Part shown: positions 1 through 15,941 of the stretch, piece after piece
Position numbering within the stretch: position 1 is the stretch's first letter
Layout: each line of letters begins with the position of its first letter
Assembly (NCBI GenBank): GCA_003153655.1
Contig: PMAK01000277.1
Coordinates: 1-16,079 of the forward strand
From: Phycisphaerales bacterium
Lineage (GTDB): Bacteria; Planctomycetota; Phycisphaerae; Tepidisphaerales; Tepidisphaeraceae
Direction of reading: 5' to 3'
DNA length: 16,079 nucleotides
Notes under the pieces: generated by a model
What the model saw: the letters and a program-made list of their open reading frames with translations, nothing else
Databases searched by the model: none
Told to the model about the DNA's origin: nothing
Made by a program: the position numbers and the translations under genes

Positions 1-675
1 CGGCGCGCCGTCGACCAGCGCGCGCAACTCGTCCGGCGTAACGGCGCGCAGCGAGTGCGCGCACGCGCCGACCACGACGTCCGGATCGTGCGCATGCGTT
101 GCACGAACGGCCGCAGCGATCTCGAGCACGTCGTCGACACCGGTCGCGAATCGGCGCTGCTGCGCGAGCAGCGGTGCCGCGCCGGCGTCGCCGTGCGCGT
201 AGAGCGCCGGCAGCAGACAGACCCCGATCCCGGCCGCTTTGGCCGCCGCGACGAGCGCGAGCGACATCGCGGCTTTGTCGGCGTACCAGCCACCGTCGGG
301 AGCACGATGCAGATAGTGAAACTCGGCGACCGCGGTGTAGCCCGCGAGCAGCATCGCGCGATAGACGTCGCGCGCGAGCTCGAACAACATCTCCGGCTCG
401 ATCTGCGCGGCAAATGCGTACATCGTCTCACGCCACGACCAGAAATCGTCCTGACCGCCGGGACCGCGCCGTTCGGCGAAACCGGCTCGCGCGCGCTGAA
501 ACGCGTGCGAGTGCAGGTTGGGCATGCCCGGTACGACCGGGCCGTCGAGGACCTGGGCGTCGCGCACCGTCGCACCGGGGCGCACCTCGAGCAGGGTACC
601 GTCCGGTGCGATCTCCAACAGCACGTCCGGGGCCCAACCCGCCGGCAAGAACGCCCAGGGCGCCACGACTCGCAC
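1..675 (-). CDS. hutF: Formimidoylglutamate deiminase HutF, N-terminal half (runs off window)
   Basis: HutF deiminates N-formimino-L-glutamate to N-formyl-L-glutamate plus ammonia in cytoplasmic histidine degradation. The minus-strand frame stays open from a stop at 724-726 to the left edge, giving about 225 residues of a family that is normally ~450 long. Visible signatures are VVPGMPNLHSHAFQRARAGF, whose two His (about residues 55 and 57) are the amidohydrolase metal pair, then GGQDDFWSWRETMY, then AEFHYLHRAPDGGWY, and AHSLRAVTP near the edge, close to the family motif PHSLRAVTP. No ATG lies in the open stretch upstream of the conserved region. GTG at 675 is the best start and GTG at 666 the alternative; neither has a strong Shine-Dalgarno. 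It is divergent from the DUF3999-like/hutI pair, and HutI makes its substrate, which supports the assignment. The C-terminal half is outside the window. Confidence 0.88.
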   Translation of the reverse strand, partial: MRVVAPWAFLPAGWAPDVLLEIAPDGTLLEVRPGATVRDAQVLDGPVVPGMPNLHSHAFQRARAGFAERRGPGGQDDFWSWRETMYAFAAQIEPEMLFELARDVYRAMLLAGYTAVAEFHYLHRAPDGGWYADKAAMSLALVAAAKAAGIGVCLLPALYAHGDAGAAPLLAQQRRFATGVDDVLEIAAAVRATHAHDPDVVVGACAHSLRAVTPDELRALVDGAP

Positions 676-764: not shown

Positions 765-1562
765 ATGGAACCAGAACTCTACGCCGCGCTCGATGCTCGA
801 CTCCGCCGTCTCGAGCACGACTCCGCCTCGCTGCGCGCCGACCTGGCCGCGGCGGCTCCGGCAACGCCATCCGCAGCGGCTGCCCCTTCTACTCCCGTTC
901 CGCCACCAGCCGCCGGCGCACCGCAGCCCGCTCCGATGCCGTCACTGGTGACCGTTCCCGTTGCGGCAAGCGAAAGCGACGACGGCCCGGCGCACGCGCA
1001 GACGTGGACGTTCGCCGTCGCCGTTCCGGTGCGCGCGATTGCGGTAAGCTTCAGCGACGGAGGCGCGCTATACGAGCGCCACGTCTCGGTCGAAACGAGC
1101 GACGATGCAAAAACATGGTCCTCCGCCGGCGACGGGACGATCGCCCACTTCGTCCAAGGTGGCGCGCACACGACGATCAGCCTCAGCGAGGCGTCGGCGC
1201 GGTACGTCCGGGTCAGCGTGCAGAACGGTGACGACGCACCGGTGCGAGGCTTGCGACCGGCGCTGCTCGTGCGCCCGCACGCGATCGTTTTTTCCGGCGG
1301 CGGGTCGCGCCGGCTGCTGTCGGGGAATCCGAACGCGGCCGCGCCGACGTACGACCTCGCCGCCCGGCTCGCGCACGAACGATGGAGCGCCGCCGATGCG
1401 TCGACGGGTAAGCCTGCTGCGAACGCCGGCTATCGCGACCCGCGACCGGTCGGCGAGCGGTATCCGTGGCTGCCCACCGGCGCGCTGCTCGCGTGCGCGC
1501 TCGCCCTTGGCCTCATTGCGTTGCGCAGTATTCCGCGCGGCATCCCGCCGGCCGAAGCGTGA
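765..1562 (+). CDS. DUF3999-like tail-anchored membrane protein with DUF2339-like N-terminus
   Basis: 265 residues, function unknown. Residues 1-30 form a charged Leu/Arg/Glu coiled-coil-like helix (RLRRLEHDSASLRADLAAA), followed to about residue 62 by an Ala/Pro-rich linker. Residues ~75-195 are a beta-rich, discoidin-like domain (VPVRAIAVSF, HVSVETSDDAKTW, ARYVRVSVQNGDD, then VRPHAIVFSGGG and YDLAARL). Residues ~236-256 are one hydrophobic helix before a short basic tail. The last ~190 residues resemble the C-terminal part of DUF3999 proteins, which normally have a signal peptide and are ~450 residues long. Here there is no signal peptide, and the first 60 residues instead resemble the start of DUF2339 proteins, a frequent DUF3999 neighbour. 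Its TGA overlaps the hutI GTG (GTGA, 1559-1562), implying cotranscription, although no link to histidine metabolism is known. Confidence 0.6.
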   Translation: MEPELYAALDARLRRLEHDSASLRADLAAAAPATPSAAAAPSTPVPPPAAGAPQPAPMPSLVTVPVAASESDDGPAHAQTWTFAVAVPVRAIAVSFSDGGALYERHVSVETSDDAKTWSSAGDGTIAHFVQGGAHTTISLSEASARYVRVSVQNGDDAPVRGLRPALLVRPHAIVFSGGGSRRLLSGNPNAAAPTYDLAARLAHERWSAADASTGKPAANAGYRDPRPVGERYPWLPTGALLACALALGLIALRSIPRGIPPAEA

Positions 1563-2666
1563 GCCGCTTCGACACGCTGTGGTACAACGCGCATCTCGCG
1601 ACCATGGTCGCGGGCGGTGCACCGTACGGCGCGATCGAGGACGGTGCGCTTGCGACGCGCGACGGTCGGATCGCCTGGATCGGGCGCCGCGCCGATCTGC
1701 CCGATGCACCCGGACGGCTCGCCGAACGCGCGATCGATGCGGGCGGACGCTGGATCACGCCGGGACTGATCGACCCTCACACGCACGTGATCTTCGGCGG
1801 CGACCGCGTCGCAGATTTTGAGCGGCGCGTCGCAGGCCAGAGCTACGCAGCGGCAGCGGGTAGCGGTAGCGGGATCGCGCACACCGTGGCGATGACGCGC
1901 GCGACCGACGAGCAAACCCTGTACCGTGACGCGGCTTCGCGCGTGCGCGCGATGATCGCCGCCGGGGCGACGACGATAGAGATCAAGTCCGGTTACGGAC
2001 TCGACGTTGAAACCGAGTTGCGGCTGCTGCGCGTCGCACGGCAACTGGGTACGAGGCTGGGCATCACTATTCGAACGACGAACCTCGGCGCGCACGTCGT
2101 TCCGCCCGAATACGCGGACCGGCGCGAGGCATACGTCGCGCTCGTGTGCGACGAGATGCTGCCGCGCGTCGCGCGCGAGCAACTCGCCGACGCCGTCGAC
2201 GTCTTCTGCGACACGATTGCGTTCTCGCCGGCAGAAACGGCGCGCGTATTCGAAGCCGCACGCGCGCTCGGTTTCGACGTCAAGGTGCATGCCGATCAGA
2301 TCGCCGATACGGGCGCAGCCGCACTGGCGGCACGATTCGGCGCGCTCTCGGCCGATCACATCGAGCACACCACCGACGCCGGCGTGGCCGCACTCGCGCA
2401 CAGCGGCACCGTCGCGGTGCTGCTACCGGGCGCATACTACTATCTGCGCGAAACCGCAAAGCCCCCCGTCGACGCGCTGCGTGCGCACGACGTGCCGATC
2501 GCACTCGCGACCGACTGCAACCCCGGCACCTCGCCGGTCACGACGCTCCCGACGGTGCTGAACATGGCCTGCGTTCTGTTCGGTCTCACGGCACAGGAAG
2601 CCGTTACCGCGGTGACGCGCAATGCGGCGCGCGCGCTCGGTCTCGCGGATCGCGGCGAGTTGCGCG
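1559..2666 (+). CDS. hutI: Imidazolonepropionase HutI, 3' truncated at contig junction
   Basis: HutI hydrolyses 4-imidazolone-5-propionate to N-formimino-L-glutamate, the third step of histidine degradation, in the cytoplasm. About 369 residues remain of ~405. Amidohydrolase metal and substrate motifs are present: IDPHTHVIFGGD (His74, His76), EIKSGYGLD, TTNLGAH (His179), VKVHADQ (His244), SADHIEHT and ATDCNPGTSP (Asp319). The start is GTG at 1559, overlapping the previous stop by four bases; it gives the expected N-terminus (VSRFDTLWYN). The recognisable sequence ends at ALGLADRGELR, just where the family continues with a short ADL-containing strand. The frame reads on to a stop at 2713, but those residues (after ~2667) are lpxK DNA read in another frame. 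It works directly before HutF, encoded divergently at the left edge. Confidence 0.9.
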
Positions 2667-2690
2667 GAGCCGATTTATGCAGCGATCATG
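2655..2690. other. Composition break joining truncated hutI to truncated lpxK
   Basis: HutI homology stops at about 2666 and LpxK homology starts at about 2667 (EPIYAAIMRARNGLYD) in a different frame, with no intergenic DNA between. Both genes are incomplete exactly here. Base composition and codon use change at the same place: 43/60 G+C in 2161-2220 against 33/60 in 3181-3240. The bases GCCGATTTAT read as ADL in the HutI frame, which happens to match the HutI consensus there, so a short microhomology may underlie the joint. A false assembly join is more likely than a natural recombination, because two essential-looking genes would be broken by the latter. Confidence 0.8.
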
Positions 2691-3632: not shown

Positions 3633-3646
3633 CGAGTGACAAATGA
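3619..3646 (+). repeat. Heptanucleotide array, four units
   Basis: Four head-to-tail 7-base units: CAAATGA, CAAATGA, CGAGTGA, CAAATGA, followed by a decaying CAATATC. The second unit supplies the stop codon of lpxK, and the array ends 10 bases before the ATG of the next gene. The same units recur at 7793-7886 and, degenerate, at 10372-10398, so this is a dispersed family rather than a chance run. Confidence 0.85.
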
Positions 3647-3656
3647 CAATATCCTC

Positions 3657-4211
3657 ATGGCGGATTTTGTCTCGCGCGGCGGATTGAAGCTCGATCACGC
3701 CCTGACATTTTTTGGAATCGAAGCCACGGGGAAAATCTGCGCCGATCTTGGATGCAGCACCGGCGGGTTCACCGATTGTCTGCTGCAGAGCGGGGCGGCC
3801 AGGGTGTATGCGGTTGATACCGGGTACGGGGTTCTGGATTGGACGCTGCGGAAGGATCCGCGCGTGATCGTCATGGAGCGGACGAATGCGATGCATGTGC
3901 TGATTCCGGAGGCTGTGGGGATCGTGACCATTGATATCAGTTGGACGCGGCAAAAAAATATTCTGCCCAATGCGCGAAAAATTCTGGCGGGCGGCGGCAC
4001 CGTCGTGAGTCTCGTCAAGCCGCATTACGAGGCCGATCCGGCGATTTTGCGCAAAGGCGTGGTACCCGAGGAATTGGTGGATTCGGTGGTTGAGAAGGTT
4101 CGGGGGGATATCGAGGGGGCAGGGTGGGTTTGGGAAAATAGCGTCCGGTCGCCGATTAGGGGAGGCGGAGGAAACGTGGAAGTGCTAGTCTGCATACGGC
4201 CTCGAACCTAG
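3657..4211 (+). CDS. TlyA/FtsJ-like rRNA 2'-O-methyltransferase lacking the S4 domain
   Basis: TlyA proteins use S-adenosylmethionine to 2'-O-methylate ribosomal RNA and are sometimes annotated as hemolysins. This protein has 184 residues against ~245-270 for the family. Its core matches: FVSRGGLKLDHAL (residues 5-17), the SAM-binding loop ADLGCSTGGFTDCLL, VYAVDTGYGVLDW, DPRVIVMERTNAM, TIDISW, then LVKPHYEA with the expected catalytic Lys. The usual ~60-residue N-terminal S4 RNA-binding domain is absent. There is no room for it, because upstream lies only a repeat array and then lpxK. I chose ATG 3657: an in-frame start at 3636 exists, but its extra residues (MTNDNIL) come from the heptamer array. 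No Shine-Dalgarno is visible. It may be translated by coupling to lpxK. RNA recognition without S4 is unexplained, so the substrate is uncertain. Confidence 0.75.
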   Translation: MADFVSRGGLKLDHALTFFGIEATGKICADLGCSTGGFTDCLLQSGAARVYAVDTGYGVLDWTLRKDPRVIVMERTNAMHVLIPEAVGIVTIDISWTRQKNILPNARKILAGGGTVVSLVKPHYEADPAILRKGVVPEELVDSVVEKVRGDIEGAGWVWENSVRSPIRGGGGNVEVLVCIRPRT

Positions 4212-4220
4212 GATTGGCTT

Positions 4221-5060
4221 ATGGCGATCATGAAAACGTTGGGTGCGATGGTTTTACTATGCCTGATGGCAACGACTGCATCGGCGGCGGCTCATGTCCA
4301 AGCGGAACTTCTGACAAATGTCTCGGCCATCCAGGCGAGGAAGCCGTTTTGGCTGGGGGTGCGGCTTACAGTCGACCCGGGATGGCATGTGTACTGGAAA
4401 AATCCGGGTGATGCCGGGCTTCCGACGCGAGTGACGTTTGTGCTTCCGGATGGATTCATCGCGGGTCCGCTACAGTATCCGACGCCTCACCGATTTGATC
4501 AGCCGGGGAATATTGTGGCGTTCGGGTATGAGAATTCTGTTTTGCTTTTGGCGCGGGTGATGCCACCGGCGAATTTACCCGCCGATTTCCAAGGCAATTT
4601 CCGGGCAGCGGCTTCCTGGTTGGTCTGCTCGAACGTCTGTATTCCGGGGAAGGAAACGGTGGATCTGAATCTTGGCTCGTCCGCTGCGGCTAGTCCGGCG
4701 AATGAGGAACTGTTTAATGACTGGATCAGCCAGGTGCCTGTCGATGGGGACAACGTCGCGACGGTGCGGACGAAGGCCGACAAAAATGGCGACTGCGAGA
4801 TTGGCATCACCTGGCAGGAAGCCGCGCCGGATTCGATTGAGTTTCTTCCGGGTAGTTTGGACAACTATAACATTTCGAGCACCCAGGTGAAAACGATCAG
4901 CCAAACAACAACGATTACTTTCAATGTTCAGGCGCTCGCTGGGAAAGCCCCGCCGCCCGCGACGTTACAGGCGGTTGTGGGATATATGAGCCACGACGGA
5001 AAACACCGGGGCATGAATGTTTCGCTTGTCTTAGGGGCGGGCAGCGCCAACAATCACTAA
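4221..5060 (+). CDS. Exported DsbD N-terminal-domain (thiol-disulfide) protein
   Basis: 279 residues. Residues 1-23 are a signal peptide (hydrophobic LGAMVLLCLMATTASAAA), so the protein is periplasmic. The mature part resembles the DsbD alpha domain: VDPGWHVYWKNPGDAGLP (about 51-68), LQYPTPHRF, NIVAFGYENSVLLLARV, then SWLVCSNVCIPGKETVDLN with the Cys136/Cys140 pair that should carry the redox-active disulfide. Full DsbD also has an eight-helix transmembrane domain and a C-terminal thioredoxin domain; neither is fused here or encoded nearby in this window. In similar free-standing proteins the domain passes electrons to periplasmic partners; the partner here is unknown. The gene starts 10 bases after the methyltransferase stop, with AGGA at about -13, and is followed after 48 bases by an exported redoxin, suggesting a joint redox role. 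Confidence 0.75.
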   Translation: MAIMKTLGAMVLLCLMATTASAAAHVQAELLTNVSAIQARKPFWLGVRLTVDPGWHVYWKNPGDAGLPTRVTFVLPDGFIAGPLQYPTPHRFDQPGNIVAFGYENSVLLLARVMPPANLPADFQGNFRAAASWLVCSNVCIPGKETVDLNLGSSAAASPANEELFNDWISQVPVDGDNVATVRTKADKNGDCEIGITWQEAAPDSIEFLPGSLDNYNISSTQVKTISQTTTITFNVQALAGKAPPPATLQAVVGYMSHDGKHRGMNVSLVLGAGSANNH

Positions 5061-5097
5061 CGTCCCGAGACATTGGTCTTAGAAGTTCTTTTTGCAA

Positions 5098-5103
5098 AGA
5101 AGG
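5098..5103 (+). promoter_or_regulatory. Ribosome binding site deciding the redoxin start
   Basis: AGAAGG lies five bases before GTG 5109 and is the best Shine-Dalgarno match in this gap. It favours GTG 5109 over an in-frame TTG at 5073, and the shorter form also gives a normal signal peptide. Confidence 0.55.
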
Positions 5104-5108
5104 CATCT

Positions 5109-5723
5109 GTGCGAAATAAGATTTATGCGGCCGCGTCGCTTTTGGTGCTGGCGTCGATTGCGTTGGTTGGGCAGAACTGCACCGGGGATCAAATAGACTC
5201 GACGGCGAGCATTGGGGCGAAGGCGCCGGACTTTATGCTGCAGGACCAGAACGGGAAGAGCGTCAGCCTGCATGATTTCGCCGGGAAGATCGTCGTGCTG
5301 GAATGGACGAATCCGGACTGCCCGTTCGTTCAGCGGCAATACAAGGAAAAAACCATGACGACGCTCTCGAGCCGATACCAGGACAAAGGCGTTGTCTGGC
5401 TAGCGATCAATTCCGGCCACTCTGCCACGAATGATTCCGACAAACAGTGGGCCGCGGCACAGGATATTTCCTATCCAGAACTGAACGATTCCAGCGGAAG
5501 CACGGGCAAGGCTTATCACGCGACAAACACGCCGGACATGTTTGTCATCGCCACTGACGGGACGCTGGTGTATGAGGGGGCGATTGATAATGATCCCGAC
5601 GGGGACAAGAGTAGCGATAAGGTGAATTATGTGCAGCAGGCATTGGACGAGATTTTATCTGGCAAGCCTGTCAGTACGCCGCAGACTAAGCCGTATGGGT
5701 GCAGCGTGAAATACGGAAGCTGA
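5109..5723 (+). CDS. Exported redoxin (AhpC/TSA-type thioredoxin-fold protein)
   Basis: 204 residues from GTG 5109. Residues ~4-21 (KIYAAASLLVLASIALVG) are a signal peptide or membrane anchor; Cys24 follows but the preceding residues do not form a good lipobox. The domain is a thioredoxin fold of the redoxin/AhpC-TSA group: IGAKAPDFMLQDQNGKSVSL, IVVLEWTNPDCPFVQRQY with the single active-site Cys71, VVWLAINSG, TPDMFVIATDGTLVYEGAID, and the C-terminal PYGCSVKY seen in the group. There is no CXXC, so it resembles a one-Cys redoxin rather than a classical thioredoxin; the C-terminal Cys (~199) could be a resolving residue. It follows the DsbD-like gene by 48 bases on the same strand, consistent with a two-gene periplasmic redox unit. 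It converges on the phosphatase gene with a 29-base gap in which I see no hairpin terminator. Confidence 0.75.
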   Translation: MRNKIYAAASLLVLASIALVGQNCTGDQIDSTASIGAKAPDFMLQDQNGKSVSLHDFAGKIVVLEWTNPDCPFVQRQYKEKTMTTLSSRYQDKGVVWLAINSGHSATNDSDKQWAAAQDISYPELNDSSGSTGKAYHATNTPDMFVIATDGTLVYEGAIDNDPDGDKSSDKVNYVQQALDEILSGKPVSTPQTKPYGCSVKYGS

Positions 5724-5752
5724 GTGGTTTCGATTGTGACATCAACTGAAAT

Positions 5753-6616
5753 TTATTTCTCGCGGCCCATGACCAAGAGCGAGATAGTCAGTATCTGCAG
5801 GAATATTGCCACGAGCATCGGCATGAGCGGTTCGCCGACCGGTTTGTAAAAATAGCTGCCGACAGCCAGGGCGATGGCGAGGATCTGGGTGACGCCGGCA
5901 AGCATTTTGCCTAGTGAGAAATCCGCTGGGTGTTCGCTTTGCCGGCGGACCTGATCCAGGAGCCGCTGGAGGAGATGTTCGATGCGGGCGAGTTCCCCTT
6001 CCACCCCTGGATTCGAGATTTGGGCCGGCTCGTCGTCTTCGTCGGCGGTGGCTGCGATGACCTCGATCGCTTCGCCCAGGCTGGAGACAGTTTCGTCGGG
6101 ATCGACGGAACTGGGCTGAAGCGTTGCGGGCGATGGGGAAAGGGCCGGGTTGCTGACAAGAATTGTGCGGCAGCCGGCGGCGTATCCGGCTTCGATATCG
6201 CGCGGGGCGTCGCCTACGATCCATGAAACGCGGAGATCCAGATCGAGGGCGGCAGCCGCGGAGAGGATCATGCCGGGCTTTGGTTTTCTCAGGTCGCTGT
6301 CCTTCCGATATTTTTCGATCGTCGCTTCGGGATGGAATGGGCAGAATTCGTTGCGGTCGATCTTGGCGCGGCGATTTTCCTGAAGGAGAAGCTGAGCCAT
6401 CTTTTCGTTGACGGCCACGAGGGCAGTTTCGTCGAACAGGCCGCGTGCGACGCCGGATTGATTGCTGAAGGTGATGACGGCGAAGCCGAGATCATGTGCC
6501 CGTGCGATGGCGGCGGCGGCGCCGGGAATCAAGCGGACGGCGGCTGGATCGCCTAGGTAGCCGTCGCAGGCGATGAGCGTATTGTCACGATCAAAGAAGA
6601 TGGCGGGTTTTTTCAC
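5753..6616 (-). CDS. GmhB-like HAD phosphatase fused to a two-helix membrane tail
   Basis: 287 residues. Residues 1-~165 are a HAD-IIIA phosphatase of the GmhB/HisB-N type: FFDRDNTL (nucleophile Asp9, acid/base Asp11), TFSNQSG (Ser51), RKPKPGM (Lys111/113) and VGDAPRDIEAG (Asp136, Asp140). GmhB removes the 7-phosphate of D-glycero-D-manno-heptose 1,7-bisphosphate for LPS core or S-layer glycans. E. coli-type GmhB binds zinc through Cys92, His94, Cys107 and Cys109. Here only Cys92 is kept; the others read Phe94, Ser107 and Leu109, so the zinc site is gone. Residues ~170-230 are an acidic linker and a short coiled coil (GELARIEHLLQRLLDQVRRQ). Residues ~236-255 and ~264-284 are two hydrophobic helices ending MGREK. 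The start is GTG 6616 with a weak ribosome site. It lies 65 bases downstream of a glycosyltransferase on the same strand. The exact substrate is uncertain. Confidence 0.75.
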   Translation of the reverse strand: MKKPAIFFDRDNTLIACDGYLGDPAAVRLIPGAAAAIARAHDLGFAVITFSNQSGVARGLFDETALVAVNEKMAQLLLQENRRAKIDRNEFCPFHPEATIEKYRKDSDLRKPKPGMILSAAAALDLDLRVSWIVGDAPRDIEAGYAAGCRTILVSNPALSPSPATLQPSSVDPDETVSSLGEAIEVIAATADEDDEPAQISNPGVEGELARIEHLLQRLLDQVRRQSEHPADFSLGKMLAGVTQILAIALAVGSYFYKPVGEPLMPMLVAIFLQILTISLLVMGREK

Positions 6617-6681
6617 TGGCGGGAATTATGCCGCCTGCCGTGGTCCATGCAACTGTCCAGAGATTTTTGCGGCCTTGCTGC

Positions 6682-7788
6682 TTAAGCTGGGCGGCCACGA
6701 CCCGGCACTGTCAGGCGCGTGTACATCGCTATTGTCTCGGTGAGTTGGCGATTGAATGTGAAATCACGCCGGATACGTGTGGCGGCAGCGATGCCCATTC
6801 GCTGGAGCGCTGATTTATCGGAAAGAAATTCAACGGCGGTGTTTAGAAATGCCTGGCGATCGATCGGGACGGATCGGCCGGTTGTTCCCTCGACGATCAA
6901 CTCTTTGGTTCCACTGGTGCGGGTGCGGAGAACAGGCACGCCGGCGCACATCGCTTCGGCGCAGGCGTATGAAAATCCCTCACGCTGCGACGGCAAAAGC
7001 ATCGCGTCGGCGGCTTGCAACAGTGGGAGGGGCTCCCGATGGCCTAGCATCCAGACTCGGTCTTCAAGACCCTGGCGATCGAGCTGCTGTCGAATACTAA
7101 TCTCATTCGGGCCGTCACCGGCCATCAGCACGCGCAGGCCGGGCAGGGAATCTTTGCTCATGGCGGCGAGGTCAACAAGCCAGGATTCGTTTTTTGGGTC
7201 TTCGAGCCTGCCCAGGTAAAGGGCGACCAGATTGTCTTCGGTGAGGCTGAACGTTGCGCGGGCGGCTTGTCTCTCAGCGGCGGTGGGAACGGGGAATCGT
7301 TCTGTATGCACGCCATGGGGAATTAGGGAGATGCGCTGCGTGGGGATTCGGGCATCTTCGATAAGCCAATCACGTGCTTCGCTGGCGGCGGCGTGGGTGT
7401 GATCGCCGAAATCGGTGAGCCATCGCCAGGGTCCGCCCAGCGGGATATGGGAGAGGTGAAGGGTGTAAAGAATCGGTACGTTGATATTTTTTTGCAGCCG
7501 GCGAGCAACGAGGGTGGCTTTGCGGTAATGGGTGTGGATGAGATCGACGGGATTCTGTTCCAGATGTTGCCGGAGGATTCGGGATGCTTTCAGTAGGCCG
7601 AGCGGGCCACCCTTGATGGGGGCTTCGATCCAGGGCCATGGGGCGGCGCGGAACATGTTGTGCCAGGGGCCCGGTTGGCCGGCGATGGCGACCTGATGCC
7701 CGGCAGATTGCATGGCGCTGCACAGGTCATAGAGATAGCGGCTGATGCCGCCGGCGTCGGAGCCGGCGGTAATGTGAAGGATTCGCAT
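6682..7788 (-). CDS. Family 4 (GT-B) glycosyltransferase
   Basis: 368 residues from ATG 7788. It is a GT4 retaining glycosyltransferase, probably acting on the cytoplasmic face of the inner membrane. N-terminal acceptor lobe: MRILHITAGSDAGGISRYLY with the Gly-Gly loop, then DLIHTHYRKATLVARRL. C-terminal nucleotide-sugar lobe: ALYLGRLEDPKN, VLMAGDGPNE, VWMLGHREPL, ADAMLLPSQREGFSYACAEAMCAGVPV containing the EX7E motif. The frame extends upstream to 7803, but the extra residues (MTNDY) come from the heptamer array, so ATG 7788 is chosen; it gives a canonical GT4 N-terminus. No Shine-Dalgarno is visible, and the repeat array occupies that place. It is the first gene of a minus-strand pair with the HAD phosphatase and is divergent from the GT2-acetyltransferase gene. 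Donor and acceptor cannot be told from sequence. Confidence 0.85.
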   Translation of the reverse strand: MRILHITAGSDAGGISRYLYDLCSAMQSAGHQVAIAGQPGPWHNMFRAAPWPWIEAPIKGGPLGLLKASRILRQHLEQNPVDLIHTHYRKATLVARRLQKNINVPILYTLHLSHIPLGGPWRWLTDFGDHTHAAASEARDWLIEDARIPTQRISLIPHGVHTERFPVPTAAERQAARATFSLTEDNLVALYLGRLEDPKNESWLVDLAAMSKDSLPGLRVLMAGDGPNEISIRQQLDRQGLEDRVWMLGHREPLPLLQAADAMLLPSQREGFSYACAEAMCAGVPVLRTRTSGTKELIVEGTTGRSVPIDRQAFLNTAVEFLSDKSALQRMGIAAATRIRRDFTFNRQLTETIAMYTRLTVPGRGRPA

Positions 7789-7792
7789 GTAA

Positions 7793-7820
7793 TCATTTGT
7801 CATTTGCCATTGGTCATTTG
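7793..7820 (-). repeat. Heptanucleotide array, left arm, four units
   Basis: On the plus strand the units are TCATTTG, TCATTTG, CCATTGG, TCATTTG, i.e. CAAATGA/CCAATGG units on the minus strand. The array begins four bases upstream of the GT4 ATG at 7788. Bases 7807-7820 form a perfect 14-base inverted repeat with 7873-7886. Confidence 0.85.
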
Positions 7821-7851
7821 TAAAGGCGAAGAATGAGCCCGCGTCATCAAG

Positions 7852-7886
7852 CCAATAACAAATGGCCAGTTACAAATGACCAATGG
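7852..7886 (+). repeat. Heptanucleotide array, right arm, five units
   Basis: Units in perfect 7-base register: CCAATAA, CAAATGG, CCAGTTA, CAAATGA, CCAATGG. The orientation is opposite to the array at 7793-7820. CAAATGACCAATGG at 7873-7886 pairs perfectly with 7807-7820 (one more G-C pair outside), so the divergent gap can fold into a 14-15 bp stem with a loop of about 52 bases. The array lies 40 bases before the ATG of the downstream fusion gene. Confidence 0.85.
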
Positions 7887-7926
7887 CCATACTTCCGATA
7901 TATATGGAACACGTGGCGGCACACCC

Positions 7927-9492
7927 ATGATTGATGTCCTGATTCAGACCCATAACGAGGCCCTGAACCTTCCCCATACGCTGCAAAGCGTTCAGGGGTG
8001 GGTAAACCGTGTCTTTGTCGTGGATAGCGGATCGACCGACCGGACGCGGGAGATTGCCGGGGAGTATGGGGCGGTTGTGGTGCAAAAGGCATGGGAAGGG
8101 TATGCGCGGCAGAAGAATTGGGCGCTGGCCAATTTGCCGTTTGAGTCGCCCTGGATACTGATTCTTGATGCGGATGAATCGGTGACGCCGCCACTGAAGG
8201 ATGAAATTTTGGAGGTGGCTTCGCGGCCGGTGCAGAATGTTCGGGAAGGCGGATTTTTTCTGAATCGCGTCACCGTCTTCATGGGACGCGAGATTCACCA
8301 TTGCGCATATTTCCCCGCCTGGAATTTGCGGCTTTTTAAGCGTGGCATCGCGCGATATGAAGAACGCAACGTTCATGAGCATATGATTGTGGACGGGCCG
8401 ACCGGGCATTTGCGGCATTTGCTTCGACATGAGGACCGGCGCGGGCTTGAGCATTTCATCGCCAAGCACAATCGATATTCGACTCTTGAAGCGTTAGAGA
8501 TTTACCAGCATCGGGAAAGATGGCCGGGTTTCTGGCGATTTGTAAACGACCGCGTGGCGCGGCGGCGGTACATCAAATATTGCGTCGCGCCTAAGCTGGC
8601 GTTGCCCTGGTTTTTTCGATTTGTTTATATGTATTTCCTCCGCGGCGGAATCCTGGATCGCCGGCCCGGGCTGACACTCTGCCTTTTCATCAGCACGTAC
8701 GAATTGTTCATTCGTGCCAAATACAATGAACTGGTCCGCACAGGCGGCGAAGCGCCGGCGGGAATAGAGGGCCTTGCGGTGGCGGAGGGAGGCGGGGCCG
8801 CTTCAGGGGAGATGAACTCCGCGCCGAAAGTTGTGTTGCCTCCCAAGCCGCTCGCGGCACCGCCGCCGAAACTGGAGCAGCCCGCGAGCGATTCAGTCCC
8901 CCCCCCGCAAATTGTACTGGCGGCTAAAGCAGCGCCTTCCCATTCGCCGACACGAGGCCGAAAAATCCAAGCCAGTCCCTGGAAACCCATGGAAAACATC
9001 AAACGCGCCTTGTGGATGATCGTCAGAGCGAGTTTGTTCCGGATGTCATTTCACAACTGGTATGGATGGCGACGGCTTTTGCTGGAGATGTTTGGGGCGA
9101 AGCTTGGCAAGCGTGTCCGCGTTCGGCCGACGGCGTCGGTGGAGATTCCGTGGAATCTGGATATTGGAGATGATGTTGTGATCGGCGACTACGCGATCAT
9201 TTATTCGCTGGGCAAAATTACGATCGGACGTGCCTCAACGATCAGTCAATATGCGCATATTTGTGCCGGTACGCATGATTATACAACGCGGCGTTTCCCC
9301 CTGATTAAACCCCCCATCGTGATTGGCGATGAGGTTTGGATCGCAGCGGATGCGTTTGTCGGCCCGGGTGTTACGATTGGCGACCGGGCAGTCGTGGGCG
9401 CTCGGGCGACGGTTACAAATGATGTGCCGTCCGATCAGGTGGTCACCGGTCCGGCCGCGAAGATTCTAAAACGCCGCGTTCTGGAGGATTAA
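7927..9492 (+). CDS. Fusion: WaaE-like GT2 glycosyltransferase + WcaF-like acetyltransferase
   Basis: 521 residues in one uninterrupted frame. Residues 1-~270 are a GT-A family 2 glycosyltransferase of the WaaE/KdtX type: IQTHNEALNLPHTL, VVDSGSTDRT (32-40), YARQKNWAL, ILDADESVTP with the metal-binding DAD at 81-83, NVHEHM (148-153) and a hydrophobic, aromatic membrane-associating stretch at ~225-265. Residues ~275-350 are a Pro/Ala-rich linker. Residues ~357-521 are a left-handed beta-helix acetyltransferase like WcaF: HNWYGWRRLLLEMFGAKLGK, IPWNLDIGDDVVIGDYA, TISQYAHICAGTHDY (candidate catalytic His450), VWIAADAFVGPGVTIGD, VVGARATVTNDVP and GPAAKILKRR. ATG 7927 is chosen over an upstream in-frame ATG (7876) that overlaps the repeat array. 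It probably adds a sugar to a core or repeat unit and O-acetylates the same product. An internal ATG (Met355) could in principle start a free acetyltransferase. Confidence 0.85.
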   Translation: MIDVLIQTHNEALNLPHTLQSVQGWVNRVFVVDSGSTDRTREIAGEYGAVVVQKAWEGYARQKNWALANLPFESPWILILDADESVTPPLKDEILEVASRPVQNVREGGFFLNRVTVFMGREIHHCAYFPAWNLRLFKRGIARYEERNVHEHMIVDGPTGHLRHLLRHEDRRGLEHFIAKHNRYSTLEALEIYQHRERWPGFWRFVNDRVARRRYIKYCVAPKLALPWFFRFVYMYFLRGGILDRRPGLTLCLFISTYELFIRAKYNELVRTGGEAPAGIEGLAVAEGGGAASGEMNSAPKVVLPPKPLAAPPPKLEQPASDSVPPPQIVLAAKAAPSHSPTRGRKIQASPWKPMENIKRALWMIVRASLFRMSFHNWYGWRRLLLEMFGAKLGKRVRVRPTASVEIPWNLDIGDDVVIGDYAIIYSLGKITIGRASTISQYAHICAGTHDYTTRRFPLIKPPIVIGDEVWIAADAFVGPGVTIGDRAVVGARATVTNDVPSDQVVTGPAAKILKRRVLED

Positions 9493-9502
9493 TATGATTT
9501 GC

Positions 9503-9530
9503 TTGCAAAAAAGTCGATATATTTTAGAAT
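9503..9530 (+). promoter_or_regulatory. Candidate sigma70-type promoter
   Basis: TTGCAA (9503-9508) and TAGAAT (9525-9530) are separated by 16 bases in a locally AT-rich stretch just after the fusion-gene stop. It would drive the DUF4118/PAS gene at 9594, with a leader of roughly 55 bases. The call is based only on consensus similarity. Confidence 0.35.
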
Positions 9531-9593
9531 GCCGGGACAATAGGGTGTGATACGGGGGATGCATGCGATCGGGTTTCGTTATTTGTGTAAACC

Positions 9594-10379
9594 ATGAGTG
9601 CAGCAATCCGGCGGACAGGGCGGCATTTTCTCTTGGCGATCATTGTAGTTGCATTGGCGCTCGTAGCGACCGAAGTCCTTTATCACGTTGATCGGAATCT
9701 ACAGCGGCATGGGGTCATGGCATTTTTCCTGGCGGGTGTTGTCGTCGCCGCATGGCGCGGCGGGACCGCGCCGGCCATCATTACGACCCTGCTCTCCGCG
9801 GCGATCGGCGCGTGGATTATGCCGCCAGACAACTCTTTTCGCATTTCCGATCCCGACGATATCATACGGCTCTCCTTATTTGTGTTTCTCGCCGCGCTTA
9901 TCTGCTATCTACATTTCGCCCGGCATCGCGCCGAAAGTTCGCTAAAGGAAAGTGAAGGCCGCCTGCATTTTTCGCTGGATTCTTCCGGAGTGGCGTGCTG
10001 GGACGCGAACGTCAAAGGGGGAACGTTCTGGAAATCCCATAATCTTCCGGTGATTTTCGGCCGGACCAATGCCGATTTCGCGACGACCTACGAGGGTTTT
10101 TTCGCGTATATTTATCCCGAGGATCGGGAGTTTTTTCACCTCGCGTCGGTGGGCAGCGGAGCCGACCACCGCGACTACGAGATTTCCCATCGTGTGATCT
10201 GCGGCGACGGAACACTCCGGCGGGTGAGCACGCGAGGCAGAATGTATATCGACGAGGAAGGCCGCGTCGAACGCATGGTCGGGGCTGTCTTCGCCGTTGA
10301 TAATAAATTGGTGGGTCCCGCGACGTCGGATAGCCGCCCGCGCATGGGGCTGGGTGACATTGCCGCTTACATCATTTGA
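9594..10379 (+). CDS. DUF4118-like membrane sensor with one PAS domain and no output domain
   Basis: 261 residues. Hydrophobic segments at ~13-33, ~40-76 (two closely packed helices around AWRGGTAP) and ~89-108 form a KdpD-like DUF4118 membrane module, with FLAGVVVAAWRGGTAPAIIT as the family-like core. Residues ~112-122 (RAESSLKESEGRL) are the usual short helix before a PAS domain. Residues ~123-240 are a PAS_3-type sensor domain: GVACWDANVKGGTFW, IYPEDREFF, DYEISHRVICGDGTLRRVS and MVGAVFAVDNK. Proteins with this head normally continue into a histidine kinase, GGDEF or further PAS domains. Here the chain ends about 20 residues after the PAS domain, with its TGA inside a degenerate heptamer repeat. 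It may be a truncated kinase or a stand-alone sensor acting through a partner. It converges on a glycosyltransferase gene with a four-base gap. Start ATG 9594 has no clear Shine-Dalgarno. Confidence 0.7.
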   Translation: MSAAIRRTGRHFLLAIIVVALALVATEVLYHVDRNLQRHGVMAFFLAGVVVAAWRGGTAPAIITTLLSAAIGAWIMPPDNSFRISDPDDIIRLSLFVFLAALICYLHFARHRAESSLKESEGRLHFSLDSSGVACWDANVKGGTFWKSHNLPVIFGRTNADFATTYEGFFAYIYPEDREFFHLASVGSGADHRDYEISHRVICGDGTLRRVSTRGRMYIDEEGRVERMVGAVFAVDNKLVGPATSDSRPRMGLGDIAAYII

Positions 10380-10398
10380 CCAGTTATCTCATTTGACC
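10372..10398. repeat. Degenerate heptamer-family direct repeat
   Basis: TCATTTGACC occurs twice (10372-10381 and 10389-10398), 17 bases apart, with CCAGTTA between, a unit also found in the array at 7852-7886. The 7-base register is broken. The first copy contains the stop codon of the PAS gene, and the second encodes the last residues of the convergent glycosyltransferase (GQMR, stop at 10384-10386). Confidence 0.5.
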
Positions 10399-11556
10399 GG
10401 CCAAAACCTGCTGATAATTCTCGATCATCTGCTGGGCCACTTTGGGCCAGGTGAATCGGCTGATGACCAGGTCGCGGCCCGCCTGACCCATTTTTGCCGC
10501 GGCGATTGGATCGCGCAGGATGGTTTCAATTCCCGCGGCAATTGCCGGCGCATTCAGCTCGGCCACGACGCCTGCGCCGGCTTCGTTGACCTCCGGAAAA
10601 TGGCATTCAGTGGAGATGACGACCGGGGCCTCGCAGGCCATCGCTTCGGTAACGGCAAGGCTGAAGCCTTCCTGCCGGCTGGGCAGGCAAAAGCAATCGC
10701 AGTCGCGCAGAGCGGCGAGCTTTTGCGACGCATAAATAGGACCTACCAGATGAACGCGCGACGCAATTCCCAGGTGGGCAATTTGCGATTCAAACGCGGT
10801 CTGAGCGCCGTCGTCCGGGCCGGCCACAATCAATTGGGCATCGGGAAAATGACGGGATACGATGGCGAACGCATCGGCCAGAAAATCCAGGCCCTTTTTG
10901 TAATGCAGACGGCTCAGGAAAAAGATCAATTTGGCATCGGCGAATTCCGGATGCGCAGCGCGAAAGACTCCCCTGTGCGGCAGCGGATCGAGTTCCTGGA
11001 GGAATATGCCGTTGGGGATGATTCGGCCGGGCGAGGTCAGATTGAGCCGTTTGGTCAGCGCGCACTCGTCGGCGTTGAGGAAATGGAGAAACGCGGCGCT
11101 GTTGAGCATATGGCGATATCCCAGCATCATGGCCAGTTGCTTTTTCCACCAGCGCTGCGACATCGCCCAGGGGTCAAGCATGCCATGCGGCGTGAGAACG
11201 AACGGCTTGCCTGCGGCGATGGCAAGTTTCGCGACAACGTGGATGAGGGGATCCCAAACACCATGCAGGTGAATCAAATCAAATTCTGGGACGACACCGG
11301 AGAGCGTGCGGCGAGCGCCGCCCGCAAGGAATCGTTCCCGTTTTGTCAGCGGAGGCAGGTATTGGAACTTAACCGCGTCGATATTGGGAATTGTATTGAT
11401 GGAGGCGGTGACACGATCGTCGGCATTGGGAAAGCGATACGCGACGATCTGCATTTCGTAGCCGAGCGCAGCCTGTGCCGCAGCCATGCGTGTTGCCACC
11501 ATCGGAGGTCCGCCCGTTGCCGGGTCGAGAGATGGAATGGCATGCAGAACTTTCAT
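10384..11556 (-). CDS. Family 4 (GT-B) glycosyltransferase
   Basis: 390 residues from ATG 11556. The N-terminal lobe has MKVLHAIPSLDPATGGPP, the GT4 Gly-Gly acceptor loop, and FDLIHLHGVWDPL. The middle carries VLTPHGMLDPWAMSQRWWKK, typical of exopolysaccharide GT4 enzymes. The C-terminal donor lobe has LIFFLSRLHYKKGLDFLADAF, LIVAGPDDG, VHLVGPIY, and CDCFCLPSRQEGFSLAVTEAM with the EX7E motif. The frame is open upstream to ATG 11655, but that extension has no GT4 character, so 11556 is preferred. It is transcribed divergently from the sulfotransferase-GT4 fusion gene and probably serves the same glycan pathway. Its last four residues and stop come from a degenerate heptamer repeat. Sugar specificity is not predictable. 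Confidence 0.87.
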   Translation of the reverse strand: MKVLHAIPSLDPATGGPPMVATRMAAAQAALGYEMQIVAYRFPNADDRVTASINTIPNIDAVKFQYLPPLTKRERFLAGGARRTLSGVVPEFDLIHLHGVWDPLIHVVAKLAIAAGKPFVLTPHGMLDPWAMSQRWWKKQLAMMLGYRHMLNSAAFLHFLNADECALTKRLNLTSPGRIIPNGIFLQELDPLPHRGVFRAAHPEFADAKLIFFLSRLHYKKGLDFLADAFAIVSRHFPDAQLIVAGPDDGAQTAFESQIAHLGIASRVHLVGPIYASQKLAALRDCDCFCLPSRQEGFSLAVTEAMACEAPVVISTECHFPEVNEAGAGVVAELNAPAIAAGIETILRDPIAAAKMGQAGRDLVISRFTWPKVAQQMIENYQQVLAGQMR

Positions 11557-11645
11557 CCGGTGCGACAAGGCCGACGTCAGAAACGGTGCTTGCCCGAATT
11601 CGACGGGCAAAATCGGATCATGGCGCGGGCTTTTGTGCTGGAAAT

Positions 11646-11654
11646 ATTGTATCA
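11646..11654 (-). promoter_or_regulatory. Candidate extended -10 promoter element
   Basis: On the minus strand TGATACAAT reads as an extended -10 box (TGN plus TACAAT). It would start transcription near 11638 and leave an ~80-base leader before ATG 11556 of the glycosyltransferase. No good -35 is seen, which is acceptable for extended -10 promoters. Confidence 0.3.
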
Positions 11655-11747
11655 AGCCGGCAGGGTTCCTCCCATCGCCCGAGCGGCATATGATTACAAG
11701 GGTCGGGTTTTGACGACGGTCGATTTTGGCAATGGAGTCTGTGACAG

Positions 11748-14006
11748 GTGAATCGTTTTCTCAAGGCAACGGGGCGGGCGGTCAAATACGGCGCCCTGAA
11801 ATGGTCTGCCGACCGAGGCGTGGCCCAGGCCGATGCAGGGACTGGGTCCGTGCCAACGATTCCATCGGCATACCTGATCGGATGCGGGCGATCAGGCACG
11901 ACCGTATGCGGTGAGGTGCTCAGACGCCATCCCGACATTTACTACTTTTTTGAGCCGTATCATCTCTGGGCATCGATCGATCCGACGATCGATGTGCTCA
12001 ATCTGTACCATATTGGGTCCGCGACGCTTCTGCTCGGCGCGGATCGGTGCAGCGACCGCTCCCGCAAACGGTTCAATCGGTTGCTTCTTGATCGCGCGGA
12101 GCGGGCCAGGGCGAAGTTGATGGTGGAGAAGACTCCGTTCAATGCGTGCCGGATCGGCTATCTGGACGCGCTGACTCCGGGTTGCAAGTTCATTCACCTG
12201 GTTCGCGATGGCGTGGATGTGGCGCGGTCTATCGATCGGCTATCGCGCGACCGAAGCTATGGGATCGTGGGAAAGGGGGACTTGAATCGATGGTGGGGAC
12301 GCAGCGGATCCAAGTGGACGGCGCTTGCGACCGATGGCTCGGGTGCGAATTATTTTCCAGACGAGATACCGCTGCTCCAGAGTTATGAGTCCAAAGGCGC
12401 GTATGAATGGCTCGTCAGCCTCGGGGAAATTGATCGCTGGCGCAGCCGACACGGGGATCGGCTGCTGGAAATAACCTACGATGAGCTGACCGCCAATCCA
12501 CAGCAAACCCTGAAGAGAGTCTGCGACTTTTTGGGCGTGGCAGCGAATGATAGATGGCTGGCGGCCTCACTGACCAAGATTGATGCGGCGCGGAAAAATT
12601 TTGGCACGCCCGTAATTCTCCCGCCGAAAATGGCGGAGGCCTTTAATCGGGAGCAAAAGCGATTCAAATTTGTGAATCGAGCGGAGGCGGGAACGCCGCA
12701 AAGCACGACTCGGGTGCAGATGGCGGTCATCTCAAACGAACCAACGCCGTATCGTCTGCACGTGCAGCAGCGGATGGCCAGGGAGCTGGAGGGTGTTGCG
12801 GTCTACAATATTTTCACGCACACGATCTCGAATCCGAGCATGCCGTGGCAAATGCGCGTTGGGGCGGAACTGAATCCGGTTTTCTTTGCTCAGAACCACA
12901 TCAACGCGGGGATGCCGATATCGTTCCGGCACTTCCGGCTCTTTCGCGACATTCAACGACATCTGATTCAACATGGAATTCAGATGATCATTCTCCTGGG
13001 ATACAACGATCTGACGAGATTGCTGCTGATCCGCTGGGCCTATCGTATGGGCATTCCGCTGGTCCTGGCGGCGGATTCGAATATCTTCGCTGACACGAGG
13101 ACGCCATGGTTTTTACGCCGCATCAAGCGGCCATTTTTGCGATGGGTGCTGAGGCGGGTCGCCGGACTTATGCCGATGGGAACTTGCGGCCGGGCCTATT
13201 TCCGGAGTTATCTCGACCACAATTTGCCGGAATTTCTTTTTCCCTACGAGCCGGATTACGCATCGCTGTCGAATTTCGATGAGCAAGAGGTGAGCGCGTT
13301 TCGGGAAAGACACAATCTCGCGCCGGACCGCAAGCGGCTGCTCTATTGCGGGCGCCTGGTCCCCATCAAGCGAGTGGATGTACTGTTGGAAGCGTTTTCT
13401 CGCGTGGCGCTGGCCCGCCCGGAATGGGATGTTGTGATCGCCGGGGACGGACCACTCCGGAAGACCCTGGAGGCGTCCCTCAACGAAACGGCGCGTCCGC
13501 GCGTGAAATGGCTTGGATTCCTCCAATTTCAGGAGACCGTGCTTGCCTATCATGCATGTGATGTGCTGGTGCATCCCAGCGAATATGAACCCTGGGCGCT
13601 GGTGATCAATGAGGCGATCGCATGTGAATTACCGATTATCGCGACATCCGTTGTCGGAGCGGCGGTTGAGTTGGTGCGGCATCGGGAGAATGGATTAATC
13701 GTCTCGCCGCGCAGCGTTGAAGCGATGACCGATGCGCTATGGGAGGTCACCAAGACGGATCGGTACCTCGAGATGAAAGCCGGATGTGCGCCAATGCTCG
13801 ATTTATGGCGTCGCGCCGCTGACCCTGTCGAGGGCGTGCGGGAAGCGCTGCGGCATTTTGGCCTGATATGGCGGCAGCCTGCCGAGCCTGCTCGAAATCG
13901 CGGGTCAGAGAGGCCATCGGCTACATCCGCCGTCGAGGGTCCGGTAAATGAAGCTGATGCATCAACTCGGCCCGGCGAAGCGTCCTGGAGTTTGGATGGC
14001 TCGTAA
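11748..14006 (+). CDS. Fusion: PAPS-type sulfotransferase + family 4 glycosyltransferase
   Basis: 752 residues in one frame from GTG 11748. Residues ~40-300 are a sulfotransferase: LIGCGRSGTTVCGEVLRRHP (43-62) is the 5'-phosphosulfate loop, EKTPFN (127-132) a conserved substrate strand, FIHLVRDGVDVARSI (148-162) the 3'-phosphate site with Arg153 and Ser161, and ITYDELTANPQQTLKRVCDF (242-261) the usual C-terminal element. Residues ~325-715 are a GT4 glycosyltransferase: ISNEPTPYRLHVQQRMARE, ILLGYNDLTRLLLIRWA, LLYCGRLVPIKRVDVLLEAF, VVIAGDGPLRKTLEAS, CDVLVHPSEYEPWALVINEA (EX7E) and ELVRHRENGLIV. The last ~40 residues are low-complexity and polar. Sulfate acceptor and sugar donor are unknown; the natural inference is a sugar that is transferred and sulfated by one chain. 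It is divergent from a GT4 gene and followed after 168 bases by the polymerase-like gene. A small 6-bp stem at 14018-14033 lacks a U-tract, so it is not called a terminator. Confidence 0.83.
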   Translation: MNRFLKATGRAVKYGALKWSADRGVAQADAGTGSVPTIPSAYLIGCGRSGTTVCGEVLRRHPDIYYFFEPYHLWASIDPTIDVLNLYHIGSATLLLGADRCSDRSRKRFNRLLLDRAERARAKLMVEKTPFNACRIGYLDALTPGCKFIHLVRDGVDVARSIDRLSRDRSYGIVGKGDLNRWWGRSGSKWTALATDGSGANYFPDEIPLLQSYESKGAYEWLVSLGEIDRWRSRHGDRLLEITYDELTANPQQTLKRVCDFLGVAANDRWLAASLTKIDAARKNFGTPVILPPKMAEAFNREQKRFKFVNRAEAGTPQSTTRVQMAVISNEPTPYRLHVQQRMARELEGVAVYNIFTHTISNPSMPWQMRVGAELNPVFFAQNHINAGMPISFRHFRLFRDIQRHLIQHGIQMIILLGYNDLTRLLLIRWAYRMGIPLVLAADSNIFADTRTPWFLRRIKRPFLRWVLRRVAGLMPMGTCGRAYFRSYLDHNLPEFLFPYEPDYASLSNFDEQEVSAFRERHNLAPDRKRLLYCGRLVPIKRVDVLLEAFSRVALARPEWDVVIAGDGPLRKTLEASLNETARPRVKWLGFLQFQETVLAYHACDVLVHPSEYEPWALVINEAIACELPIIATSVVGAAVELVRHRENGLIVSPRSVEAMTDALWEVTKTDRYLEMKAGCAPMLDLWRRAADPVEGVREALRHFGLIWRQPAEPARNRGSERPSATSAVEGPVNEADASTRPGEASWSLDGS

Positions 14007-14165
14007 ACGGCGATTTTGGTAGTCTGAACTGCCGATAGCGAAACTGAACGTCCGCCATCGTTTTTGCGAAAAAATCCAACTGGTATTTGTGGGCGGCATA
14101 ATTTGCTGCTGCCGGGGCGGAGTGCCAATGTGCTTTAAATCGCGCGTGTGAGCGGCGTTCCCGAT

Positions 14166-14170
14166 AGAGG
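14166..14170 (+). promoter_or_regulatory. Ribosome binding site deciding the polymerase start
   Basis: AGAGG lies four bases before ATG 14175 and supports that start over an in-frame GTG at 14148, which has no ribosome site. Confidence 0.5.
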
Positions 14171-14174
14171 CGAT

Positions 14175-15740
14175 ATGAGTCAATACGCGACAAATTACGA
14201 TTACGGAGCGAGCGATCTCGCCGAGCCATTGGATTACACGGCTCCCGCGGCGGATCCGGGTCGATCAAAAATGACCCCGTTGCTGCTCATTCCGTCACTG
14301 GGATTGTCAGGTATCGCCTGGATGGCGGGGGGACTGTCGCCCCTGACCGACATGAGCTTTCTGCTCCTCACCATCGTCTGCATGGTTTTGCTGGTGCGTG
14401 AGCTGCTCATGTTTACCCAGCGATGGGGATTGGGCGGCGTCGTGCTTTACGCCGGTTCGCTGGTTTGGTTCTGCTTCGACTATTTAACATTCTGGTTTAT
14501 GAATCCGGAAAAAGCGGCGCAAACCGGATTCACCAACGCGATAGTGGCCAAGGCCGCTTTTTTCACGATCCTGTTTATCTGCTCCATGATGATCGGCCTG
14601 AATATCAGAAAGGGCCGATTTTTCGTCCGGCTCATGGAAAAAACGCCTGACATCCGCACGTCGGGAATTGGCTTCATTCTAGTCTTGATCCTGTTCGTGA
14701 TTGGCATCTGTCCGTTTTTTCTGTTCACCTCGGAACCGTGGTACACGGCGATTTATCATCAGTTCACCTCCGGCCGCGGCGGGCATGGTGTGGCCTGGAC
14801 CGTCGGTCGAACCGGAAACGTTAACTACAATTGGGGCGCGTACGTCGCGCAAATCCTCCAGATTGGAAAGGTTGGTTCGATCTACGCGATCCTTTGGGTT
14901 ATCCTGGTTTCCAAAAATATATTGCCACGGATCGTCGGGGTGGCGATCTGGCTACTGTGGCTGCTACTGGGAACAGGCACGGGCACTCGGGGTGAAGTGA
15001 TAGCCTCGATGCTTCCGGTGGTGTTTGCGTTCCATCTCAAATACAGCGCTATCGCCGCGGCCTATTCGAAAAAGATAAGTATTCGAGCTTATGTCATAGC
15101 GGGAGTGCTGTTGCTGATCACACTCATAGTCGTGCAGTTTCAGATAACCTTTCGGAACGAGGGATTTCTCAATAAATCACTGGAAGATGTGAAGGAAAAA
15201 ATCGAGGGAAACAGCATGTTCTCGGAGGGGCTGATGGGGTATAGGCTGATTCCCGACCGATTCAACTATTTCCATAACGCGTTTTACGTCGAGGGAGCCA
15301 TCCGTCCAATCCCGGACACCATCTTCTGGTTCTTCGTATCGCCGATGCCCCGCGCCCTGTGGCATTCCAAACCGATCGATCCCGCGTGGAAATGGTACAA
15401 CGAGGTCGTCACGGGCGATCCGAACGGCACCGAAGGCACCACGATCGCCACCGGCGCATCTGGATATTGGTTTATCCGGTACGGTCCTTTCGGACTTATC
15501 GAAGGCGGAATTTTGATTGGCTGGCTGATGTCTTACGGAGAAATGCTCTTTCTCTCCTGCAATGGCCGGCTGAATCTTCTCCTATTCGTGCTAGGCTGGG
15601 AAACGTGGCTATTTCGTGGCTTCAGAGGATTTGGTTTTAACGACCTTGACGCGCTGCTCGTCGGTTTTATTGCTCTGTCACTGCTAACCTTGGTCGCAAA
15701 CGTCTTCGGCGGTGTACCGGCGCAGATGGAATCAGCTTGA
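14175..15740 (+). CDS. O-antigen polymerase (Wzy)-like multi-pass membrane protein
   Basis: 521 residues with about ten hydrophobic helices. The N-terminal ~30 residues are polar and Tyr/Asp/Ala-rich (MSQYATNYDYGASDLAEP). Helices are visible at ~35-52, 60-78, 87-105, 122-142 and 165-185, with further ones in the middle and C-terminal third. Extramembrane stretches lie at ~187-225 (SEPWYTAIYHQFTSGRGGHG) and ~320-430 (QITFRNEGFLNKSLEDVKEK, RLIPDRFNYFHNAFYVEGAI). Wzy-type proteins join undecaprenyl-linked repeat units on the periplasmic side, and a large loop between helices in the second half is typical. Sequence conservation in this family is weak, so the call rests on topology, a motif-like GTRGEVIASMLP segment and the surrounding glycosyltransferases. 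It could instead be an exosortase-free EPS membrane protein of the same broad superfamily. It follows the sulfotransferase-GT4 fusion on the same strand. Confidence 0.65.
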   Translation: MSQYATNYDYGASDLAEPLDYTAPAADPGRSKMTPLLLIPSLGLSGIAWMAGGLSPLTDMSFLLLTIVCMVLLVRELLMFTQRWGLGGVVLYAGSLVWFCFDYLTFWFMNPEKAAQTGFTNAIVAKAAFFTILFICSMMIGLNIRKGRFFVRLMEKTPDIRTSGIGFILVLILFVIGICPFFLFTSEPWYTAIYHQFTSGRGGHGVAWTVGRTGNVNYNWGAYVAQILQIGKVGSIYAILWVILVSKNILPRIVGVAIWLLWLLLGTGTGTRGEVIASMLPVVFAFHLKYSAIAAAYSKKISIRAYVIAGVLLLITLIVVQFQITFRNEGFLNKSLEDVKEKIEGNSMFSEGLMGYRLIPDRFNYFHNAFYVEGAIRPIPDTIFWFFVSPMPRALWHSKPIDPAWKWYNEVVTGDPNGTEGTTIATGASGYWFIRYGPFGLIEGGILIGWLMSYGEMLFLSCNGRLNLLLFVLGWETWLFRGFRGFGFNDLDALLVGFIALSLLTLVANVFGGVPAQMESA

Positions 15741-15941
15741 TTTATTTTCCCATGATTTGAATATATCGCGTGCTGAGGGGAGCGGTATCCTGCCTATCCT
15801 CGTTTTGAATTCGCTAACGGCAAACCGCGTGATCGGACACCGAGACCGAAGAACATCTGGCTGAAAAGGCGGGTAACGGGGTACAATTCCACCGGCGGCG
15901 AGGCGACGCTGGTTTTAACCTATAAAAAGCGAGGGATAGGG
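15741..15941 (+). other. 201-base intergenic region, TACAAT box only
   Basis: No open frame with coding character is seen. TACAAT at 15882-15887 is a good -10 match but has no acceptable -35. No strong hairpin with a U-tract follows the polymerase gene. GGGATAGGG directly before ATG 15942 serves as a purine-rich ribosome site for the next gene. Confidence 0.3.

Follow-up and report, generated by a model that had tools for sequence, protein, structure and literature searches.

Misassembly is one source of chimeric contigs in metagenome-assembled genomes, although, according to the GUNC paper (PMC8201837), it is relatively rare beside mis-binning; a second study (PMC11261854) found that the number of chimeric contigs depends primarily on the assembler. 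The window considered here, 16,079 bp in length, is the entire contig C70 of a draft genome, G000, that comprises 304 contigs and 4.65 Mb and is 88.2% complete and 3.4% contaminated. With a probability that we put at roughly 95%, this contig is a short-overlap assembly chimera in which two unrelated bacteria have been joined at the contig end. The hut locus in bases 1-2665, with the genes hutF, DUF3999, and hutI, belongs to Eremiobacterota, and bases 2646-16079 are consistent with the organism of the draft itself, a planctomycete of the Tepidisphaeraceae. The suggestion of an earlier note that the contig contains a false assembly join is strongly supported by the taxonomy and tetranucleotide composition of its two parts, by the occurrence elsewhere of the two joined genes in intact form, by differing gene neighborhoods, and by a shared word of 20-22 bases.

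The closest counterpart of the left part is the hutF-hutI locus of Eremiobacterota (L028-L034), in which the two genes are divergent and, in some genomes, separated by a DUF3999 gene, an arrangement that recurs in the window. Among eight Eremiobacterota loci (L027-L034), seven carry hutF upstream of hutI on the other strand (two are cut by a locus or contig edge), with 65-78% identity to hutF of the window, and three (L027, L029, and L032) contain a DUF3999 gene; the placement of this gene between hutF and hutI is seen in L032/L178, L029/L176, and L179. In the window, the N-terminal half of hutF, encoding formimidoylglutamate deiminase, occupies positions 1..675 of the minus strand (NF006684 profile positions 4-223 of 456; TIGR02022 positions 6-223 of 455), followed on the plus strand by a DUF3999-like gene at 765..1562 (PF13163, E=1.9e-8), likewise of Eremiobacterota affinity, and by hutI, encoding imidazolonepropionase, which starts with GTG and extends from 1559 to 2665. 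Unlike its counterparts, the locus is damaged at both ends, hutF being cut by the contig end and hutI by the joint. The contig begins in the middle of hutF, so that the foreign piece is both terminal and incomplete at its outer edge.

For the right part, the closest comparison is with the gluQ-lpxK-tlyA locus of a family member, G013 (L168), where lpxK is followed by tlyA as in the window and tlyA is 65% identical. This order was found in one of the eight relatives' loci examined; in the other seven, lpxK alone of the window's genes is present, with no tlyA match beside it. In both relatives inspected for the upstream side (G013 and G020, L169), gluQ lies immediately upstream of lpxK, the stop of the one overlapping the start of the other, whereas the window has foreign DNA in place of gluQ and the first 25 codons of lpxK. 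A search of the draft with the gluQ gene of G013 yielded a single hit, a gene on contig C300 with 38% identity that is putatively gltX, so that the expected left neighbor of lpxK is probably missing from the draft and not displaced. The truncated lpxK, encoding tetraacyldisaccharide 4'-kinase, runs from 2646 to 3632 on the plus strand and is adjoined on the same strand by a gene for a tlyA/FtsJ-family rRNA methyltransferase at 3636..4211 (PF01728; 154 bits against TIGR00478, below the cut-off of 185.8 for that model).

The remaining planctomycete part, 4221..16079, is even in composition and encodes a DsbD_N-domain protein, a ResA-like protein, a GmhB-like HAD protein, glycosyltransferases, two fusion proteins, and one protein without a family match. 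In the first fusion, within a single open frame at 7876-9492, a proline-rich linker connects a family 2 glycosyltransferase to a WcaF-like hexapeptide acetyltransferase; in the second, at 11748-14006, a sulfotransferase domain and a GT4 glycosyltransferase share one open frame.

Both genes at the joint have nearly identical intact relatives, identified among the best 120 candidates for each protein (representatives of clusters at 90%). For HutI, the best of the 120 relatives listed, themselves drawn from 8,000 scored candidates and 405-439 residues long, is P0001, an intact protein of 411 residues that is 99% identical to the window's product. The window's hutI has 369 codons and lacks the last 42; its match to the amidohydrolase model TIGR01224, with 423 bits, is above the score cut-off and covers profile positions 1-341 of 377, after which the sequence is foreign, so that the protein is C-terminally cut and not full length. 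For LpxK, the best of the 120 relatives listed is P0121, again intact (353 residues) and 99% identical, and its first 25 residues are absent from the window, whose gene matches TIGR00682 from profile position 5 (193 bits) and PF02606 from position 10 (239 bits), in each case above the cut-off and short of full length. The P0001 cluster consists of four member sequences on three contigs, the longest of 9,854 bp, and the P0121 cluster of five members on one contig of 1,541 bp. No joined HutI-LpxK peptide occurs among these 240 best relatives, and when the draft was searched for the lost 5' end of lpxK, nothing outside C70 matched P0121. Two HutI residues encoded at 2054-2083, close together, differ from P0001; one of them is an asparagine where all 120 listed relatives have tyrosine or phenylalanine, which suggests thin coverage, and both differences are probably sequencing or consensus errors of a region covered at low depth.

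The joint itself can be read from the alignments of the two products with their intact relatives. HutI identity to P0001 extends to the arginine encoded at 2663-2665 (...GLADRGELR), and LpxK identity to P0121 begins at the arginine encoded at 2646-2648 (RIAASCAEP...). The genes lie on the same strand in different frames (1559+3n for hutI, 2646+3n for lpxK), and bases 2646-2665 encode both proteins. The codons allow a little more, as base 2645 is compatible with the last position of a leucine codon in LpxK and base 2666 with the first position of a valine codon in HutI; bases 2644 and 2667 cannot match. The joint on the plus strand therefore extends over 2645..2666 at most, a word of 20-22 bases read as ADRGELR in the frame of HutI and as RIAASCA in that of LpxK. 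From the protein identities together with the bases of the window, the shared word would be GCGGATCGCGGCGAGTTGCGCG or up to two bases less. At a blunt joint, the chance that about seven residues would agree in the second frame is negligible, so that both source genomes must have carried all or nearly all of the word, which is, on these alignments, the place where the pieces were joined. Overlapping identities in different frames are the signature of an overlap-driven join.

These results bear closely on what had been described from the window at the outset. That HutI homology ends and LpxK homology begins at this place, in different frames and with both genes truncated, is borne out by the profile matches and by the alignments with P0001 and P0121. 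The interval of 2655..2690 proposed for the joint overlaps the one found here, but its start lies about ten bases too far to the right; likewise, the two homologies do meet within a few bases, but they overlap over 2646-2665 instead of merely abutting. The bases then suggested as shared, GCCGATTTAT (2669-2678), must be discarded as a joining word: they belong to LpxK only, as intact HutI continues after GELR with V-D-A-R-C-D-L, which is not encoded there.

How readily such words arise can be roughly gauged. A search of the genome with the first 20 bases of the joining word, tolerating up to one mismatch, gave a single occurrence. Comparison of 419 kb of this genome with 113 kb of Eremiobacterota DNA gave one 20-mer common to both and no 21-mer; scaled to full genomes, this single count corresponds, roughly, to shared 20-mers of the order of hundreds, and accidental links of 20-mer size are expected in a mixed community. 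Words listed as common to the left and right stretches of the window carry no weight here, as those stretches overlap and the matches are trivial.

Composition changes sharply at the joint. The step in G+C from about 70% to about 55% that the earlier note had seen in sampled lines was recovered in a maximum-likelihood change-point test, which placed it at base 2672, with 70.4% before and 56.8% after and a log-likelihood gain of 88.2; the right part alone gave a gain of just 10.0. Across the 41 sequences tested (38 sampled contigs, for which the first 20 kb at most were used; contig C16 in full; and the window, both whole and as its right part alone), C16 alone exceeded the window, with a gain of 155.3, and the next gain after the window was 40.1. 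A comparison of tetranucleotide profiles on the two sides, as had been advised, assigns each to its own taxon. The left part correlates at 0.978 with Eremiobacterota, a figure in part due to homology since the reference was 71 kb around hut loci, and at 0.721 with its own genome; the right part correlates at 0.972 with its own genome and at 0.718 with Eremiobacterota. Nine pieces along 2668-16047 gave correlations of 0.87-0.92 with the genome. When 39 sampled contigs of the draft were divided into 524 overlapping pieces of 2,660 bases, none reached the left part in G+C content or in likeness to Eremiobacterota, and 15 correlated as poorly or more poorly with the mean profile of the genome. There is thus a composition step at the joint, with each side matching its own taxon.

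Best-match taxonomy, the second comparison that had been advised, likewise gives Eremiobacterota on the left and Tepidisphaeraceae on the right. Sixteen of the HutI relatives listed carry an organism name, and of these 14 are Candidatus Eremiobacteraeota or Candidatus Elarobacter, the other two being one Dongiaceae and one Xanthomonadales. The eight best named genome loci for HutI (L027-L034) are all from Eremiobacterota, with identities of 72-82%. All eight organism-named relatives among the best 120 for LpxK are Tepidisphaeraceae. This assignment fits the window's own genome, as lpxK is present in 40 of 41 genomes of the family and class, its own included. Clear HutI matches (E below 1e-50) besides that of the window itself were found in one of 24 other genomes of the family and three of 16 of the class, at 35-44% identity. 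A search for LpxK in eight Eremiobacterota genomes returned nothing, an empty answer that alone shows nothing. No near-identical Eremiobacterota genome showing the true continuation of hutI was found among those compared, of which the nearest has 81% nucleotide identity to the window across hutI.

The joint in C70 is probably not the only one of its kind in the draft. The whole of C16 was profiled because it was the one of 40 sampled contigs that stood out; 262 of the 304 contigs lie outside the sample. Its G+C content falls from 63.8% to 57.5% at about 27,505, and the probable joint lies near 27,457-27,507 (L184:7457-7507), inside an aldo/keto reductase gene at the conserved motif GYRHIDTAQMYGNE. 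The N-terminus of this enzyme is unlike its relatives up to the motif, after which it matches them, and all four organism-named matches listed for the part after the motif are Pseudolabrys. The right 60 kb of C16 have the composition of the planctomycete, and the first 27.5 kb are, on the basis of one gene and of composition, probably alphaproteobacterial, making the site near 27.46 kb a probable second inter-phylum joint in G000.

Other irregularities were observed in the draft. A weaker G+C step, from 59.3% to 51.8% with a gain of 40.1, occurs near position 9,980 of contig C131 (L151) and may reflect a further joint or an island. At least one run of exactly two N is present in 32 of the 39 sampled stretches (for example, L129, L130, and L151) and none in the window; these runs look as though they came from a scaffolding or gap-marking step. 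All 2,957 bases of contig C81 (L144) read N.

In the likeliest course of events, the Tepidisphaeraceae contig ended near the start of lpxK, at thin coverage, and was extended through the accidental word of 20-22 bases into the end of a contig carrying the Eremiobacterota hutF-DUF3999-hutI region, from a source presumably present in the same sample. The best matches name two taxa, and each gene at the joint has an intact counterpart elsewhere, while none of the 240 relatives listed shows the joined form. We infer that the assembler, with a short k-mer and thin coverage, made the join; the k-mer size at which it arose is a guess. Very unlikely by comparison is a laboratory chimera, whether from ligation, from amplification, or as a single chimeric long read. 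Short shared words also give rise to amplification chimeras, and the clustered HutI substitutions at 2054-2083, in suggesting thin and error-prone coverage, would suit such an origin. Chimeric molecules of this type are, however, uncommon and seldom prevail in a consensus. The smallest k-mers of short-read assemblers are about as long as the overlap of 20-22 bases, and a systematic cause is indicated by the second probable joint in C16.

Also very unlikely is a real recent horizontal transfer in which an Eremiobacterota hut fragment recombined into the planctomycete lpxK by short-homology illegitimate recombination: such recombination can also use short shared words, of which the joint has one, but the event would have removed the start of a gene that is single copy in the draft and found in 40 of the 41 genomes searched, the intact 99%-identical P0121 exists elsewhere, the expected left neighbor gluQ was not found in a draft that is 88% complete, and the foreign piece still has the composition of its donor and has its other end outside the contig, running off in hutF, with no host DNA on its left within C70. 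The same junction was not encountered in relatives of either parent. Of the 25 family relatives, 23 gave an LpxK match, and 22 of these matches start at residues 3-23 of P0121 with an N-terminus of their own, the match in G016 starting at residue 34; no long hutI match in 99 genomes of the family of G043 extends beyond base 2672.

The short-overlap assembly chimera has consequences for annotation. The fused hutI-lpxK genes are most likely an artefact without biological novelty, and C70 would give rise to false claims of gene neighborhood, such as one placing histidine catabolism next to lipid A and glycan genes. The warning in the earlier note against linking histidine catabolism to the glycan locus, or assigning one taxon to the whole window, was well placed, as the window has two source taxa. 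For quality control, the contig should be trimmed of its first 2,645 bases, hutF and hutI should not be counted for the genome, and C16 of the same draft calls for the same check for chimerism. A search of the genome for hutH (histidine ammonia-lyase) gave one model match on C16 at 85.8-87.3 kb (85799-87298; L183), which at 439 bits is below the cut-off of 539 and so does not demonstrate histidine catabolism in this organism; next to this hutH-like gene lies an open frame with a GAGPAG motif, which we take to be dinucleotide-binding-like.

A practical test that requires no reads follows from this case, in that overlapping identities of two intact relatives across a joint reveal the joining word. 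As far as the chimeric contigs treated in the GUNC paper (PMC8201837) are concerned, in which fragments from several sources are wrongly assembled into one contig, C70 is the same in kind. What sets it apart is an unusually legible joint, as each broken gene has an intact relative at 99% identity and the joining word is common to both in two frames.
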